This document shows positions 31,754 to 46,055 of a stretch of DNA of 64,000 nt, one piece after another. A program made the position numbers and the translations under genes. Position 1 is the first letter of the stretch. The number at the start of each line of letters is the position of its first letter. Below the pieces are notes generated by a model, which searched no databases, was not told the origin of the DNA, and was given only the letters and a program-made list of their open reading frames with translations. Source of the DNA: Heyndrickxia coagulans 36D1 (lineage in GTDB: Bacteria; Bacillota; Bacilli; Bacillales; Bacillaceae_C); NCBI RefSeq assembly GCF_000169195.2, contig NC_016023.1, positions 1-64,000 on the forward strand. The letters are read 5' to 3'.

Positions 31754-32527
31754 TTACAGCAGCCGTTTTTCCAAAATATTCCGCAGTTTGTAAATGGCCT
31801 TCGAATGGATCTGGGAAATCCGGGAAGTGGAAAGCCCCATCACTTCGCCGATTTCTGTCAGCGTGCATTCTTCCTGATAAAAGAGGCTCAGCACAAGCTG
31901 CTCTTTTTCCGACAGGGCACGGATGGCCTCCGCCAGTTCCTTTACGGTTTCCTTTTTTTCCAGCTCGGATTCCGGCTGGCCGGCATTCCTGTCCCCGGAC
32001 ACGAACCGGGATGCTGCTTCCGGTTCATCATTATCGGTGCCCGTTTCTTCAATCGACAGGACATTGGCAAAAAACTGTTCATTCATCGTTGTGCAGACTT
32101 CCGTTTCTTCCATGCCAAGCTCCAAAGCGACTTCTTTTGGAGAAACGGTGCGCAAGTATTTCTGCTCGAGACTTTCAATGGCGCTTTCAATTTTTTTCGC
32201 TTTTTCCCTTGTGCCTCTTGACAGCCAGTCTTCTTTCCGCAGGCCGTCCAAAATCGCGCCGCGGATCCGAAAAGAAGCATATGTATCAAATCTCAGTTCG
32301 CGGGACGGATCAAATTTGTTTAATGAATCCAAAAGCCCGAACATGCCAAGGCTTTTTAAATCCTCTTTTGACACGTTGCGGGGAAGCCCGGCGGCAATTC
32401 TTTGGACATGGAAAGAAACAAGCGGCATATATCTTTTCACAAGGGCATTTCCGGCTTCCGGATCACGGGATTTAAGCCACAAATCCCAATCTTTCTGCTC
32501 CTCACCCTGTTTTGGCTCCTCCGCCAT
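31754..32527 (-). CDS. sigD: RNA polymerase sigma factor SigD (sigma-28/FliA type)
   Basis: Directs transcription of late flagellar, chemotaxis and autolysin genes. Region 2 is at about residues 25-95 (YMPLVSFHVQRIAAGLPRNV, LKSLGMFGLLDSLNKFDPSRELRFDTYASFRIRGAILDGLRKEDW), region 3 follows, and region 4 is at the C-terminus (TLTEIGEVMGLSTSRISQIHSKAI). Its distal location in the operon is the known B. subtilis arrangement and makes its level depend on read-through of about 27 kb. Confidence 0.97.
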   Translation of the reverse strand: MAEEPKQGEEQKDWDLWLKSRDPEAGNALVKRYMPLVSFHVQRIAAGLPRNVSKEDLKSLGMFGLLDSLNKFDPSRELRFDTYASFRIRGAILDGLRKEDWLSRGTREKAKKIESAIESLEQKYLRTVSPKEVALELGMEETEVCTTMNEQFFANVLSIEETGTDNDEPEAASRFVSGDRNAGQPESELEKKETVKELAEAIRALSEKEQLVLSLFYQEECTLTEIGEVMGLSTSRISQIHSKAIYKLRNILEKRLL

Positions 32528-32581: not shown

Positions 32582-33082
32582 TCATATTTCGACAGAACCC
32601 TGGTTGACCGTTCTCACGGTCAGTACGGCATTTCCCGGGTTAAATTCAATCGTGCGGCCGCTTTTTCCCCCGGTATCTTCGGCCACCAATTGAATGCGGT
32701 ACTTTTTCAGTTCCTGTTTTACAGCCTCGACATTGCGCGGCCCGATCCGCATCGCTTCATTCATGGAAGAAAAAGAAAACATTTCGGCTCCGCCGGCGAT
32801 TTTTGCTAGCAGTCTGCTCTGGTGGCAGCCTGCGCTTTTCAGCATGCCGATCAGTTCAAAAATAGCGGTATCCGCAAATTTTGCTTTATTCATATGCTCT
32901 CCATTCTTCGCAATGAAGGATGAAGGCAGCATTACATGGGCAAGCCCGGCTGTTTTAGCCGGCAAATCGTACAAAACGACGCCAACGCATGAGCCAAGCC
33001 CGGTTGTCCTGATCAGGCCGGGAGAAGTGACGATCTTCATTTCCGCAATGCCCACTTTGACAATGTTCATTTCGCTATCCAT
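32582..33082 (-). CDS. cheD: chemoreceptor glutamine deamidase CheD
   Basis: Deamidates receptor glutamines and interacts with CheC in Bacillus. The Cys-His pair is visible: Cys32 in GLGSCVGVVLYD and His49 in GLAHVMLP, with NIRIGPRNVEA-like sequence downstream. The start overlaps the cheC stop by 8 bases and follows AAGGG. 166 residues is normal. Confidence 0.96.
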   Translation of the reverse strand: MDSEMNIVKVGIAEMKIVTSPGLIRTTGLGSCVGVVLYDLPAKTAGLAHVMLPSSFIAKNGEHMNKAKFADTAIFELIGMLKSAGCHQSRLLAKIAGGAEMFSFSSMNEAMRIGPRNVEAVKQELKKYRIQLVAEDTGGKSGRTIEFNPGNAVLTVRTVNQGSVEI

Positions 33083-33713
33083 CTAATTCAACCCTTAGCG
33101 CACGGAATAGGATTTCATAAGAATCCGGATCCGGAAAGAGGAAAAAATGCCCCTTCATATCGGAATTTTCCGCCTGCTCATCGCTCAGCACTGTATCAAT
33201 CACGATGGCATAATCGCTGACCTGGGACAGTTCAATCAAACCATAGCTGATAATGGAACCGAACATATCAATGCTGAGTGCCGGGACGGAAGGCAGCATA
33301 TCCAGCTTCGTAAAATCGGAAAGCGCCGTTAAATAAGACCCCGACAAAATATTGCCCAGTTCCAGCATCGCCGACAGCCCGAGCTCCGGGTATGGCGGCT
33401 TTTCAAAGGAGAACGACGGATCCTCGATCATTTCTTTAATGAATCTTTCGCCCTGGGCAACCGGCACGATGAAAAAAATATTGCCGGGCGCATCGCCTTC
33501 AATCCGCAAAAACACGCTCACCACAACGAGCTCAGCGCCGCCGATCAGCTCCATAATTTCTTCAAAGGAGGCAATATGGACATCCGGGACCGTCATTTTG
33601 ATTTTTTTATGCAGCAATTTGGAAAGCGCCGTTGCGGCATGTCCCGCTCCGATATTCCCGATTTCTTTTAAGACATCAAGGTGAAGATTTGTGATTTTAT
33701 TTTTAATATCCAT
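33075..33713 (-). CDS. cheC: CheY-P phosphatase CheC
   Basis: Dephosphorylates CheY-P, stimulated by CheD. Two copies of the active-site pattern [D/S]xxxExxN are present: D13-E17-N20 in LDVLKEIGNIGAGHA and the second in GLSAMLELGNILSGSYL. 212 residues, an ATG at 33713 behind AGGGG. It follows cheW and precedes cheD as in B. subtilis. Confidence 0.96.
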   Translation of the reverse strand: MDIKNKITNLHLDVLKEIGNIGAGHAATALSKLLHKKIKMTVPDVHIASFEEIMELIGGAELVVVSVFLRIEGDAPGNIFFIVPVAQGERFIKEMIEDPSFSFEKPPYPELGLSAMLELGNILSGSYLTALSDFTKLDMLPSVPALSIDMFGSIISYGLIELSQVSDYAIVIDTVLSDEQAENSDMKGHFFLFPDPDSYEILFRALRVELDG

Positions 33714-33724
33714 TTAAAATACCC

Positions 33725-34153
33725 CTATTGTAATGGCGTTAAAGTTTTTTCTAAATCAAGCAGCAGCAAAAGCCTCTGGTTTATATTCGCCACACCGGAA
33801 ATAAAGTCCTCTTTGCCCGCGTTTACCACTTCCGGCTCGGGTTCCACTTTTTTTTCGTCGATATCCAGAACATCCGTCGCCTCGTCCACAATTAGGCCCG
33901 TTTCAATTTCTCCAAACCGGACGATGATCAGCTTGCGTTCCTCCTTATCAGCGTCCGTGTCATCCTCCATGCCAAACCGTTTTTTCAGATCAATGACCGG
34001 AATAATGATACCGCGTAAATTCATCACGCCAAGTATAAAAGGAGCGGTAAGCGGCACTCTTGTAATATGCTGCAGCTTTTCAATGGCCAAAACCTGCGTA
34101 ACCGGCAGGGCATACTCTTTATCATTCAACTGAAATACGATCACTTTCTCCAA
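33725..34153 (-). CDS. cheW: chemotaxis coupling protein CheW
   Basis: Links receptors to the CheA kinase. The single CheW SH3-like double domain contains ITRVPLTAPFILGVMNLRGIIIPVIDLKKRFG and GLIVDEATDVLDI. The TTG at 34153 (MEKVIVFQLNDKEYALPV) has AAAGAGG nine bases upstream. A TTG three codons earlier (34162) directly abuts that site and is less likely. Confidence 0.94.
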   Translation of the reverse strand: MEKVIVFQLNDKEYALPVTQVLAIEKLQHITRVPLTAPFILGVMNLRGIIIPVIDLKKRFGMEDDTDADKEERKLIIVRFGEIETGLIVDEATDVLDIDEKKVEPEPEVVNAGKEDFISGVANINQRLLLLLDLEKTLTPLQ

Positions 34154-34205
34154 CGATCTCAACCTCTTTCCTGGGCAATGAAATGGGCGGCAAGCGCCTT
34201 GTTTT

Positions 34206-36260
34206 CTATTTGATCAGCGCATTGCTGTCGATGATAAGGGCAACCTGGCCGTTTCCAAGAATGGTGGCGCCTGATATGGCAAATACATTCGTTAAATAAT
34301 TTCCTAAAGATTTTAATACGATTTCCTGCTGGCCGATAAAGGCGTCCACCACAAATGCAGCCAGTTTTTCCCCTTTTCGCACAATCAGTACGGAGACATA
34401 TTCATCATTTTGCTTTGCATCCGGAACTTCAAATATTTCATTCAAAAAGACAAGCGGCACCACTTTGCCCCGGAAATCGATCACTTTTTGGTGATGCGCT
34501 TTTAATATTTCGCCCTTCTTAATAATGGCCGTCTCTACAATAGAGGATAACGGAACAGCATATTTTTCCGTCCCGATTTCCACAAGCATGACGGAAATGA
34601 TCGATAAGGTAAGCGGCAGCTGAATCGTAAAGACGGACCCGCGCCCTTCTGCGGAATGGACAGAAATCGAGCCGCCCAATGATTGAATGGTTGATTTCAC
34701 CACATCCAGCCCGACACCCCGGCCGGAAATATCGGATACATGGTCAGCGGTTGAAAAACCGGATTCAAAAATCAGGTTATAAATCTGGCTGTCTGTTAAA
34801 CTGCCGGCTTCTTCCTTTTTGACAATGCCTTTTTCAATGGCTTTTTCCAACACTTTTTCACGGTTAATGCCGGCGCCGTCGTCTTCAATTTCTATAAACA
34901 CATGGTTGCCGCTGTGATAAGCTTTTAACGTAATGGTTCCTGTTTCCGGCTTCCCTGCCCGCTTTCTTTCTTCCGGCTGTTCAATGCCGTGGTCGCACGA
35001 ATTCCGGATCAGATGGACAAGCGGGTCGCCGATTTCATCAATGACGGTGCGGTCCAGTTCTGTTTCGGCGCCGATAATGTCGAGATCCATTTTTTTGTGC
35101 AATTCTCTTGCCAGCTGGCGGACAAGCCGCGGAAAACGGTTAAACACCGTTTCGACCGGCACCATCCGCATGTTCAAAATAATCGTTTGCAAGTCGCCGG
35201 AAATTCTGGACATCCTTTCAACGGTTTCATTGAGCTCCGGATGGTTCACTTCTTTTGCAATTTGTTCGAGGCGCCCGCGGTCAATGACCAGCTCTTCAAA
35301 TAGATTCAGCAGATTATCCAGCCGCTCGATGTTCACACGGATCGTCTTGGTTGTATGTTTCTGTTTTTGCGGATGCTTTTTTGCCGGTTTTTGCGGATGC
35401 TTTTCCGCTGCGTCCGGTGCTGCCTGTTTTTTCTGCTCTGGTTCTGCCGGTTTCTCCGATTCTGCCGTTTCCGGGTGTTGACCGCGCCCATCCTGCTTTG
35501 TGAGAGTCACGGTGCTTGCTTTAACATCTTCAATCTCTGACACCTTGCAGATTTTTTCGCGAATCTCTTCCCTGTCTTCTTTTGAGATCAGTGTCACTTT
35601 AAATTCATTGTCAAACTGTTCTTCTTCCAGCTGGTCGGCCGGCGGATCGGAATGGATGATCTCGCCGCATTTTTCAAGGATATCAAAGACCATGAATACC
35701 CGCGCCGCTTTTAATAGGCAGTCGCTGCGCAATTTTACCGTGAACTGGTAACAGTTGTACCCTTGTTCTTCCGATTGAACAATCACGGCCTGTTCGTACT
35801 GGTCAAATTCGTCTTCCTCTGTTTCCGCCTTTTCCGCTGTCGCAGCTGAAGTTTCTTTCTCCGTCTTCTTCTCTCCGGCTGAACCATGATCTACCGCTTC
35901 GAGGCGGGCGATCGTCCCGCTCACATCCAATTTGCCGTCCCCACCGTTTGCAACCGATTCCACCATCGCTTCCAGATGGTCCACCGCAGTAAAAATCACA
36001 TCGATAATGTCCGGGGTTACAGACAGCTTCCCGTTCCGGATGGCATCAAGCACATTTTCCATCTTATGGGTCAGATTGGCGAGATCTTCATACCCCATTG
36101 TTGCCGACATCCCTTTCAATGTGTGGGCGGAACGGAAAATTTCATTGACAATTTGCAAGTCATCCGGGCTTTTTTCAAGTAGCAGCACATTTTCGTTTAA
36201 CGACTGGATATGTTCCCTGCTTTCTTCAATAAACACTTCCAAGTACTGGCTCATTTCCAT
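34206..36260 (-). CDS. cheA: chemotaxis histidine kinase CheA
   Basis: Autophosphorylating kinase of the chemosensory array. Domains: P1 Hpt with the phospho-His in FRSAHTLKGMSATMGY (about residue 46), P2 CheY-binding (about 155-245), a basic/Pro linker containing a duplicated KKHPQK, P3 dimerisation (INIERLDNLLNLFEELVIDRGRL-type), P4 HATPase (LVHLIRNSCDHGIE, DDGAGIN, GRGVGLDVVKS) and a P5 CheW-like C-terminus. 684 residues is close to the B. subtilis length. All catalytic boxes look intact. Confidence 0.97.
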   Translation of the reverse strand: MEMSQYLEVFIEESREHIQSLNENVLLLEKSPDDLQIVNEIFRSAHTLKGMSATMGYEDLANLTHKMENVLDAIRNGKLSVTPDIIDVIFTAVDHLEAMVESVANGGDGKLDVSGTIARLEAVDHGSAGEKKTEKETSAATAEKAETEEDEFDQYEQAVIVQSEEQGYNCYQFTVKLRSDCLLKAARVFMVFDILEKCGEIIHSDPPADQLEEEQFDNEFKVTLISKEDREEIREKICKVSEIEDVKASTVTLTKQDGRGQHPETAESEKPAEPEQKKQAAPDAAEKHPQKPAKKHPQKQKHTTKTIRVNIERLDNLLNLFEELVIDRGRLEQIAKEVNHPELNETVERMSRISGDLQTIILNMRMVPVETVFNRFPRLVRQLARELHKKMDLDIIGAETELDRTVIDEIGDPLVHLIRNSCDHGIEQPEERKRAGKPETGTITLKAYHSGNHVFIEIEDDGAGINREKVLEKAIEKGIVKKEEAGSLTDSQIYNLIFESGFSTADHVSDISGRGVGLDVVKSTIQSLGGSISVHSAEGRGSVFTIQLPLTLSIISVMLVEIGTEKYAVPLSSIVETAIIKKGEILKAHHQKVIDFRGKVVPLVFLNEIFEVPDAKQNDEYVSVLIVRKGEKLAAFVVDAFIGQQEIVLKSLGNYLTNVFAISGATILGNGQVALIIDSNALIK
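35363..35404. repeat. 18-bp direct repeat in the CheA P2-P3 linker
   Basis: GTTTTTGCGGATGCTTTT occurs at 35363-35380 and again at 35387-35404 on the plus strand, a 24-base period. It encodes a duplicated KKHPQK-type motif in the flexible linker, so a change in copy number would stay in frame. Confidence 0.85.
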
Positions 36261-36272
36261 CTATACCACACC

Positions 36273-36932
36273 CTAATCACTAATAAATTTCATGATTGCC
36301 TCCGCAATTTTTTCCAGCGGCAAAACTTCATCCACCACTTTCGCGGCAATGGCACTTCTCGGCATGCCGTAAACGATGCAGCTTTCTTCCGCTTCGGCAA
36401 TCGCTCTTACGTGCCCGCGATTCTTTAAGGCGATCAAACCTTTTGTTCCGTCTGAACCCATCCCGGTCATGATGATGGCAAGTGTTTCATAGTTTTTTAG
36501 CATGCTCACCGATTCAAATGTTTTATCCACAGCCGGCCTGTGCCCGTTAACCGGCGCGGATTGCTCAAGCTGGATAAAGAGATGTGCGCCGTGCGCCTCC
36601 ACGCCCATATGGAAGTCCCCGGGCGCAATATAAACCGCCCCCGGCTTGAGCATTTCGCCATCCTCGGCTTCTTTCACCCTGATGTTTGAAATGGCATTCA
36701 GCCGGTTGGCAAGCGACTTTGTAAATCCGCTTGGCATATGCTGGACAACCAGAACGGGCGCTTCCAAATTCCCGGGCAGGGAAGAAAGAACGGTTTGCAG
36801 GGCGCGCGGGCCTCCGGTCGATGTTCCGATGCAAACCAATTTTTTCTGTGCTATCCGTCCGCTTTGAACAGGATCGGACAAAGGTTGCGTGTTTTTTTCC
36901 GGTTCGCTTCCTTTACGTTTTTCCCATTTCAC
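36273..36932 (-). CDS. cheB: CheB methylesterase catalytic domain without a receiver domain
   Basis: Removes methyl groups from chemoreceptors. The 219 residues hold a complete C-terminal esterase domain: Ser38 in GTSTGG, His65 in VVQHMPSGF and Asp161 in MTGMGSDGTKG, spaced as in full CheB. Normal CheB is about 350 residues with an N-terminal CheY-like receiver. Here only about 30 linker-like residues precede the catalytic fold. The gene has its own GTG start at 36932 with AGGGGG seven bases upstream. Only 59 bases separate it from flhG, too few to hide a receiver in another frame. Control by phosphorylation is therefore lost. Confidence 0.94.
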   Translation of the reverse strand: MKWEKRKGSEPEKNTQPLSDPVQSGRIAQKKLVCIGTSTGGPRALQTVLSSLPGNLEAPVLVVQHMPSGFTKSLANRLNAISNIRVKEAEDGEMLKPGAVYIAPGDFHMGVEAHGAHLFIQLEQSAPVNGHRPAVDKTFESVSMLKNYETLAIIMTGMGSDGTKGLIALKNRGHVRAIAEAEESCIVYGMPRSAIAAKVVDEVLPLEKIAEAIMKFISD

Positions 36933-36991
36933 AAATCTGCCCCCTGTTTTTCAAAACTGTCATTTCATTGCCCTGTTATTGTCATGCATGT

Positions 36992-37852
36992 TTAAGATTT
37001 CAACAAAAGCCCCCTCAGTTTCCGCATAAATACCGGTGCGCGCTGGCTGGGCCCGTCCGAATTGCCGGATACATAGCGGTTAAGCAATTCATCGATTCTT
37101 CTTGCAGCCGCTGAATGTGGAAATGCACTGTAAAACGGCAGCTGCCTTGATACAGCTTTTTTTACATGCGCATCTTCCGGCACAACGCCGAGAATGTTCA
37201 CTTCTTTCCCTAAAAATTTCTTAACTGTAAATTGAAGCCGGTTTAACGTCAACATCCCGTCTTTTTCTTTTTCCGCCCGGTTGCAAATTAAATAAAGGGG
37301 GGCGCTGAATTGCTGCATGTAAATATATTTCATCATCGAATAAGCATCGGTAATCGCTGTCGGCTCAGGTGTTGTGACAATAAAAATATCATCAGCCGAA
37401 AGCAAAATTTTAAGGCTTGATGGCGCGGCGCCGGCACCCATATCGAAAATGATGTAATCAAAATCATACTGGAGCAGTTCGAGCTCTGTGACAAGCCTGG
37501 TTACAGCAGCTTCTTCCATCTCGACAATCTGGGCAAACCCGTTGCCGGCAGAAATATAAGAAATACCGGCCGGCCCGTCGCATATCATTTGGGCAAGTGG
37601 GATATTCCGGTTGATAAAGTCCGAGATCGTGTATGGTGCGTCAAGCCCGAGAAGGACGTGGATATTGCCCATGCCGACATCCAGGTCAAATAAAAGGACT
37701 TTTTTTCCCCTTTCTGCAAGTGCCATTGCCAAATTGACCGAGATGTTGGACTTCCCGACGCCGCCCTTTCCACTTGCGACTGCAAGCGTTTTTGCCGGAA
37801 TCCCGTGTTGCATTTTTAACTTTGCGCGCAGCTGTTCTGCCTGGTCTCTCAT
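36992..37852 (-). CDS. flhG: MinD-like ATPase FlhG (YlxH)
   Basis: Controls flagellar number and placement with FlhF. The deviant Walker A motif ASGKGGVGKSNISVNLAM starts near residue 26, and VLLFDLDVGMGNIHVLLG and DYIIFDMGAGA follow. The N-terminal activator segment (DQAEQLRAKL) resembles the FlhF-stimulating helix. The start overlaps the flhF stop (ATGA). 286 residues. Confidence 0.96.
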   Translation of the reverse strand: MRDQAEQLRAKLKMQHGIPAKTLAVASGKGGVGKSNISVNLAMALAERGKKVLLFDLDVGMGNIHVLLGLDAPYTISDFINRNIPLAQMICDGPAGISYISAGNGFAQIVEMEEAAVTRLVTELELLQYDFDYIIFDMGAGAAPSSLKILLSADDIFIVTTPEPTAITDAYSMMKYIYMQQFSAPLYLICNRAEKEKDGMLTLNRLQFTVKKFLGKEVNILGVVPEDAHVKKAVSRQLPFYSAFPHSAAARRIDELLNRYVSGNSDGPSQRAPVFMRKLRGLLLKS

Positions 37853-44936: not shown

Positions 44937-46055
44937 TTATCTCAGTTTTTTCAGCCGGTCTTTCTGGCTCACGATATCTGTCACACGCACACCGAAGTTC
45001 TCATCAATCACCACCACTTCCCCAATGGCAATTAACTGATGGTTGATGAGAATATCCACGGGTTCTCCGGCGAGCTTGTCCAGTTCCACAATGGAGCCGG
45101 CGCCCATCTCAAGAATTTCCCTTACTGTTTTCGATGTCCTGCCCAGTTCAACAGTCACTTCAAGCGGGATATCAAGGAGCATGTCCAGATTTTTCGTTTC
45201 AACGCGCGGCGCTGTTTCTTCAAAACTCGTAAAAACAGCTGGCTGCACATTTTGGTACATCTCCTGTTTTGCTGCATTTTGAGCAGGCTCAGCCGGTTTT
45301 TCCGCAGCATGGCCGCGCATATTTTGATCCGGCTGCTTTTCCTCTGCTTTTTTTTCAGCTTCGGCGGGTTGTTCAGGATGAATGAGATCGCGCGCCAGTT
45401 TTTTCGCAAACGAAAGCGGCAACAGCTGCATGATCTGCGAATCGATTAATGACCCGATCATAATCCGGAACGAGACTTTCACAAGCAAATCCTGGTCCGG
45501 AAGCTTGTCCGTGCCTTCGCCTTCCAAAATATTTAAAAGTGAAACGGCCGGCGGGGAAATATCGATTCTTTTATTAAAAACCGTAGACATCGAGGTAGCG
45601 GCAGAACCCATCATCTGATTCATCGCTTCCTGTACCGCGCTCAAATGGATCTCATCCAGTTCGCTGCTCGGATTTTCGCCGGTTCCGCCCAGCATCAAGT
45701 CGGCAATAATGGCGGCATCGGATTGTTTAATGACGAGCACATTCACGCCGGAAAAGCCCTCCGTGTATTTCACCTGAATGGCCACGTAAGGATGCGGAAA
45801 TTCATCCGCCAGTTTGTCGTGCCGGACAATGCTGACCTCAGGCGTTGTAATTTCAACTTTTTGTGAAAGCAGGGTGGACAATGCCGTCGCAGAGCTCCCG
45901 AACGAAATGTTACCAATTTCCCCAAGCGCATCCCTTTCCATGGAATCGAGATAATCTTCCACACGGAGGGAATCTTTGGCGCTTGCGTCTTCCAGATTTG
46001 CAGTGCCGTTAAGAAGGGCATCAATTTCTTCTTGCGACAGCATATCATCGCTCAT
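44937..46055 (-). CDS. fliY: flagellar switch phosphatase FliY
   Basis: Switch protein fusing a CheY-P phosphatase and a FliN domain. The N-terminus MSDDMLSQEEIDALLNG resembles the CheY-binding peptide. Two phosphatase motifs follow, D-E-N in RDALGEIGNISFG and S-E-N in SAVQEAMNQMMGSAA. A Glu/Gln-rich linker (about 210-270) leads to the C-terminal SpoA/FliN domain (DIPLEVTVELGRTSKTVREIL). 372 residues, overlapping fliM. Confidence 0.96.
   Translation of the reverse strand: MSDDMLSQEEIDALLNGTANLEDASAKDSLRVEDYLDSMERDALGEIGNISFGSSATALSTLLSQKVEITTPEVSIVRHDKLADEFPHPYVAIQVKYTEGFSGVNVLVIKQSDAAIIADLMLGGTGENPSSELDEIHLSAVQEAMNQMMGSAATSMSTVFNKRIDISPPAVSLLNILEGEGTDKLPDQDLLVKVSFRIMIGSLIDSQIMQLLPLSFAKKLARDLIHPEQPAEAEKKAEEKQPDQNMRGHAAEKPAEPAQNAAKQEMYQNVQPAVFTSFEETAPRVETKNLDMLLDIPLEVTVELGRTSKTVREILEMGAGSIVELDKLAGEPVDILINHQLIAIGEVVVIDENFGVRVTDIVSQKDRLKKLR

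Follow-up and report, generated by a model that had tools for sequence, protein, structure and literature searches.

The single cheB gene of Heyndrickxia coagulans 36D1 encodes a protein of 219 residues that consists of the catalytic domain without the receiver, inside an otherwise intact Bacillus-type fla/che operon. This short cheB is a settled gene form and not a broken end, because all sampled genomes of the genus carry it, no detached receiver was found in the genome, diverged pairs of short-form genes are under purifying selection, and the protein has a full predicted fold. Phylogenetic evidence suggests that the receiver has been lost repeatedly among Bacillus-type relatives. The reading that we consider quite probable is that of a working, settled methylesterase whose receiver was deleted on the stem of the genus, whose activity would be free of phosphorylation by CheA, and beside which feedback would run through CheY-P/CheC/CheD and CheV.

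A catalytic-domain CheB behind flhG

The window, meaning the whole stretch of 64,000 nucleotides that was analyzed, contains the features listed in Table 1. Pfam finds only CheB_methylest in the 219-aa CheB (residues 33-213, 2.4e-66); the match to this model (PF01339) scores 223 bits against a cut-off of 24 and spans model positions 1-174 of 174, a full-length domain. Pfam returned no match to Response_reg in the protein, which lacks the N-terminal receiver with its phospho-Asp found in canonical two-domain CheB, and the alignment to the NCBIfam CheB model starts at model position 149 of 357 with a score under the cut-off. Ser38, His65, and Asp161 align with the triad of solved CheB catalytic domains, and the triad is kept in 31/31 short-form CheBs compared. 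Searching the stretch between flhG and the catalytic domain by tblastn with three receiver queries gave no remnant at E<=1. From the flhG stop at 36992 there are 59 bases to cheB, and 12 bases separate cheB from cheA; the cheB ribosome site, AGGGGGC, ends six bases upstream of the GTG, and a scan of the 59-base gap found no promoter- or terminator-like sites. The first-pass annotation had described a CheB reduced to its catalytic domain with the triad intact, a gap to flhG with no room for a receiver, and a settled gene with its own GTG and a good ribosome site in an otherwise intact operon, and each of these points was borne out.

Table 1. Coordinates in the window of the receiverless cheB, its parts, and the surrounding fla/che genes
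Feature	Position	Strand	Basis
cheB, receiverless, 219 aa, GTG start	36273..36932	-	ORF list, Pfam
CheB N-terminal residues 1-29, charged, predicted disordered	36846..36932	-	pLDDT about 55; neither helix nor strand
CheB catalytic domain, residues 30-219	36276..36845	-	Pfam, AlphaFold, Foldseek
Catalytic Ser38 codon	36819..36821	-	Alignments
Catalytic His65 codon	36738..36740	-	Alignments
Catalytic Asp161 codon	36450..36452	-	Alignments
flhG-cheB gap, 59 bases, with ribosome site 36939-36945	36933..36991	-	
flhG, MinD/ParA-type ATPase	36992..37852	-	Pfam
cheA: Hpt, P2, dimerization, ATPase, and CheW-like domains	34206..36260	-	Pfam
cheW	33725..34162	-	Pfam
cheC	33075..33713	-	Pfam, NCBIfam
cheD	32582..33082	-	Pfam
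Sigma-70 family factor	31754..32527	-	Domain search
cheY, 120 aa	44559..44921	-	
fliY: CheC domains and FliN C-terminal domain	44937..46055	-	Domain search

The local order is flhG-cheB-cheA-cheW-cheC-cheD-sigma factor, within a Bacillus-type arrangement of flhA-flhF-flhG-cheB-cheA-cheW-cheC-cheD, with CheY and FliY encoded upstream and CheV and CheR elsewhere. We take the order from flhA to cheD to be that of B. subtilis; the gene that we call flhG is named from its position and similarity, and the sigma-70 family factor presumably occupies the position of sigD.

The AlphaFold2 model of the 219-aa CheB has a mean pLDDT of 91.5, with values of 94-99 in blocks from residue 31 onward, and Foldseek superposes it on 1chd with an rmsd of 1.2 and on 3sft with an rmsd of 1.0. 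The modeled protein is a complete CheB catalytic fold with a disordered tail of 29 residues. The counterpart of this tail is far shorter or nearly absent in most relatives from the related genus g5, and we read residues 1-29 as what is left of the linker between the two domains.

Chemotaxis proteins of the genome and control of the short CheB

The first-pass annotation had proposed searching the genome for a second full CheB, a detached CheB receiver, and CheR. A whole-genome search of the 3.55-Mb single contig returned one CheB match and no second CheB; two CheR matches are present, and the cheA gene at 34206..36260 is the sole CheA match. None of the 24 receivers examined in the genome looks like a detached CheB receiver: the best scores against CheB receivers, 42%, belong to CheY and to the product of a CheY-like gene next to ccdA, as compared with 48-83% for 87 canonical in-place CheB receivers of other genomes, and a detached receiver was rejected on these values. 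The CheY-like gene (L037; G000:C1:3233566-3233901) is a second single-domain receiver, immediately 3′ of a ccdA-like gene. We presume it to be of the yneI/ccdB type of B. subtilis and probably old and general. With two CheY-like single-domain receivers in the genome, phosphorylation control could conceivably act in trans, by binding of CheY, the ccdA-adjacent protein, or CheV to the catalytic domain; we regard this as very improbable, given that neither CheY-like receiver is of the CheB type by similarity and that the ccdA-adjacent one, in a setting like that of B. subtilis yneI/ccdB, probably has an old and general role.

One of the two CheR matches (at 2673304) adjoins a hybrid histidine kinase and a receiver-phosphatase protein (L039, L046; G000:C1:2672416-2675133), a module that we take to resemble the RsbK/RsbM/RsbY stress module of B. 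cereus. Another genome of the set, G008, has as its sole CheR matches two partial, overlapping frames (G008:C1:3333806-3334335), and its cheR looks split. The present genome has 12 MCP matches. No CheB-binding pentapeptide was seen by eye in the last 30 residues of the 12 MCP C-termini, and losing the site where receiver and linker join, which serves as the tether, would therefore be expected to cost little.

CheC, CheD, FliY, and CheY are encoded within the window, and CheV (L054) outside it, at 237809. CheV comprises a CheW-like part and a receiver in which the acidic residues, phospho-Asp, and Lys are in place, as judged by eye. The first-pass statement that CheA-P would feed only CheY fails on this point, since CheV gives CheA-P at least two sinks.

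In two-domain CheB the receiver is described as covering the active site until phosphorylation (PMC8609364), and an engineered E. coli CheBc (residues 147-349) is described as behaving much like phosphorylated CheB in a network that still adapts (PMC5809149). Because the receiver covers the active site in solved CheB and CheBc acts approximately as the phosphorylated enzyme, it is a reasonable inference that the 219-aa CheB is constitutively open and active; its methylesterase substrates would presumably be the receptors. With the active site uncovered, the rate of demethylation would be set by the amount of CheB and the shape of the receptors and not by CheA phosphorylation, and activity-dependent feedback would be left to CheA-P acting via CheY-P/CheC/CheD and via CheV, a role that their presence and the B. 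subtilis literature point to.

E. coli cells with CheBc are reported to show bimodal kinase activity and badly reduced spreading in soft agar (PMC5809149), for which reason the short form should cost something unless the feedback has been replaced. Since CheBc strains chemotax poorly without feedback, some control of the enzyme might be expected, and the catalytic domain could be restrained by another partner: CheD, a protein bound to the receptors, or the N-terminal tail of the short CheB itself. Regulation would then have moved and not gone. The adjacent cheC and cheD genes would suit such an arrangement, but the model shows the tail as disordered, most g5 relatives nearly lack it, and the usual marker-gene order surrounds the short genes of the family with no new neighbor among the markers compared; we think it unlikely. 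An enzyme free of phosphorylation control, with CheY-P/CheC/CheD and CheV providing feedback, remains the reading we prefer.

Receiver loss among relatives

The short cheB is present in 5/5 sampled genomes of the genus (one assembly per species), with GTG or TTG starts in roughly equal place. Four short frames from other genomes of the order (L168 in G206, L171 in G162, L184 in G322, and L185 in G379) are broken cheB frames with receiver DNA present, which may be assembly errors or incipient losses and were left out of the count of losses given below. They illustrate how an assembly or sequencing artifact can arise; for the present gene the chance of one is negligible, as the receiver DNA itself is absent from the five assemblies of the genus.

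The spacing between the flhG stop and the CheB catalytic domain was measured at 114 loci that have both genes, and its distribution is bimodal. The short class comprises 23 loci at 14-243 bp, or 21 distinct ones because L078 and L092 are named records of G010 and G018 already in the set, and has a receiver match in none at E<=1. The long class comprises 91 loci at >=466 bp, of which two have a decayed receiver and two a broken frame, and has a receiver match in every one; these receiver-bearing CheBs likewise lie behind flhG and differ by the receiver and linker. Among the best 80 named matches, which are the nearest relatives, three loci are short: Lederbergia citrea, Niallia endozanthoxylica, and a record labeled Bacillus subtilis DE0224. 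The catalytic domain is 49-65% identical to the present CheB in 55 named matches, the three short ones among them.

The short cheB genes are under purifying selection. Estimated by a simple counting method over the stretch aligned to the present CheB, with some dS values over 1, dN/dS is 0.06-0.18 in eight short-form pairs (dS 0.53-1.41) and 0.055-0.091 in four receiver-form pairs. The nearest short pairs give 0.40 (G000-G003, dS 0.04) and 0.21 (G011-G022, dS 0.15), and since the short-form values lie overall above those of the receiver-form pairs, selection is perhaps somewhat relaxed. The raised values of the two nearest pairs would also fit a vestigial gene that is irrelevant to receptor adaptation and is being lost, as would the lack of a CheB match in 15/15 f21 and 11/15 f23 genomes of the order sample, where CheB appears dispensable. 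That the present gene is such a remnant is highly doubtful in view of the triad intact in every short form compared, the low dN/dS of the eight better diverged pairs, and its retention in the operon, where it has a ribosome site to itself.

In a family sample of 34 genomes, CheB is encoded in the fla/che operon of 28; it is short in 20 of these, has a decayed receiver in 2, and is canonical in 6. The remaining six (G028-G033, genus g7; L162-L167) were left out, their CheB, together with CheA and CheW, being encoded in another che cluster, which also contains receptors and cheR and has no fla match nearby. An even draw of 397 genomes from the order gave a CheB match in 348, and at least 23 of these, from eight families, have a receiverless CheB, 13 in the same family as the present genome and 10 in seven others (G040, G048, G066, G106, G174, G291, G311, G204, G282, and G323). 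These order-sample counts are lower bounds, to which a second CheB in a genome may add. All ten short cheB genes outside the family have flagellar and che genes around them, and a search of about 1 kb upstream of each gave no receiver at E<=1e-4, a tighter cut-off than that applied to the 114 loci (E<=1). CheB catalytic matches also occur in frames of ~950-1200 aa, probably large fusion proteins, in G038, G051, G083, G148, G259, G271, and others; the six named genomes carry an ordinary-length cheB as well.

The decayed receivers, an INTERMEDIATE, belong to G015 and G024 of genus g5. Their six key receiver columns read SDDSRP and SDDSRY: Ser stands where the acid pair has its first Asp, Arg is aligned to the conserved Lys, and the phospho-Asp is kept. 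DDDSKP is complete in 90/99 long CheBs, and 97/99 have an acidic residue in the first column and retain the second Asp, phospho-Asp, Lys, and Pro.

Mapped on a tree of FlhA, CheC, and CheD (a quick tree of 123 rows with several long branches, 31 rows being short and 2 decayed, and the short genomes from outside the family having been chosen for being short), receiver state changes 11 times, 9 of these forced by well-supported branches; L128 is absent from this tree and L171 from the first tree built. A quick 40-row marker tree rejects a single clade of the 20 short forms of the family (p 6e-8) and a single clade of its short and decayed forms (p 0.0045), and does not reject a joint loss in the present genus and G005 (p 0.121) or a common clade for the 14 short forms in g5 (p 0.086). 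On the catalytic-domain tree alone, which is too short to decide, one origin of the short forms of the family has p 0.104. For the present gene, the receiver would have been lost by deletion on the stem of the genus, possibly jointly with one sister genus, represented by G005. A wider reading, which we put forward tentatively as plausible and somewhat short of probable, is that phosphorylation control of CheB is dispensable in Bacillus-type chemotaxis and has been dropped about ten times independently, sometimes via a decayed receiver, with CheY-P/CheC/CheD and CheV already closing the loop.

Three possible correlates of receiver loss were examined and dropped. Loss of CheA as a cause was rejected for the genomes searched, exactly one CheA match being found in 44/44 of them. 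In six genomes, five with the short form and one with the long form, cheB is followed by no cheA or cheW match and CheA is encoded elsewhere (L178, L179, and L180 in G174, G291, and G311; L182, L183, and L186 in G282, G323, and G107). At catalytic-domain position 69 a residue other than Gly occurs in 23/33 short or decayed rows versus 6/90 receiver rows; an independent-pairs test gave a median p of 0.22 for this site and the lowest median p among the 84 sites tested was 0.125, so that we do not claim convergent change after receiver loss, and the present CheB keeps Gly69. The median number of MCP matches is 8.5 in 20 short genomes versus 15.5 in 6 receiver-bearing ones (23 and 12 in the decayed pair), and with few independent events we do not claim fewer receptors with the short form.

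Comparison with known receiverless CheBs

Receiverless CheBs are already known, and it is their repeated origin within Bacillus-type operons that we did not find in print: a full-text search covering a minority of the subscription journals returned no report of a receiverless CheB in such an operon. The CheB of Campylobacter jejuni is described as lacking the receiver domain (PMC3879368, PMC340952, PMC2147049), and the F3 class of Campylobacterota is described as first defined by a set of markers that includes a receiverless CheB (PMC9321776). As far as these accounts go, C. jejuni and the F3 class share with the present system a CheB without receiver and the presence of CheV, and the class differs in a CheA with an added receiver, a cheVAW core operon, and an auxiliary CheB. 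Here CheA has only the Pfam domains Hpt, P2, H-kinase_dim, HATPase_c, and CheW, CheV lies at a distance from cheA and cheW, and cheB shares a Bacillus-type fla/che operon with the genes for CheC and CheD.

The Frz system of Myxococcus xanthus governs gliding-type motility and not flagella. FrzG of this species is listed with a degenerate receiver, much like G015 and G024, and CheBa (185 aa) is tabulated as a catalytic domain alone, like the present CheB (PMC4546325, PMC3945109); unlike for the present cheB, no che operon is listed for CheBa.

Receiver loss is more general than a single genome, and one domain dropped repeatedly in one type of pathway makes the case worth taking to the bench. 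To our knowledge, E. coli has no CheC, CheD, or CheV. A modeling paper on B. subtilis from 2004 treats the role of CheB phosphorylation as unknown and cites the receiverless CheB of C. jejuni (PMC340952). The natural, repeated losses in Bacillus-type operons are ready-made experiments on that role. They stand in contrast to the artificial E. coli CheBc, a truncation at the same domain as in the present CheB, which is reported to make kinase activity bimodal and to impair chemotaxis in soft agar (PMC5809149).
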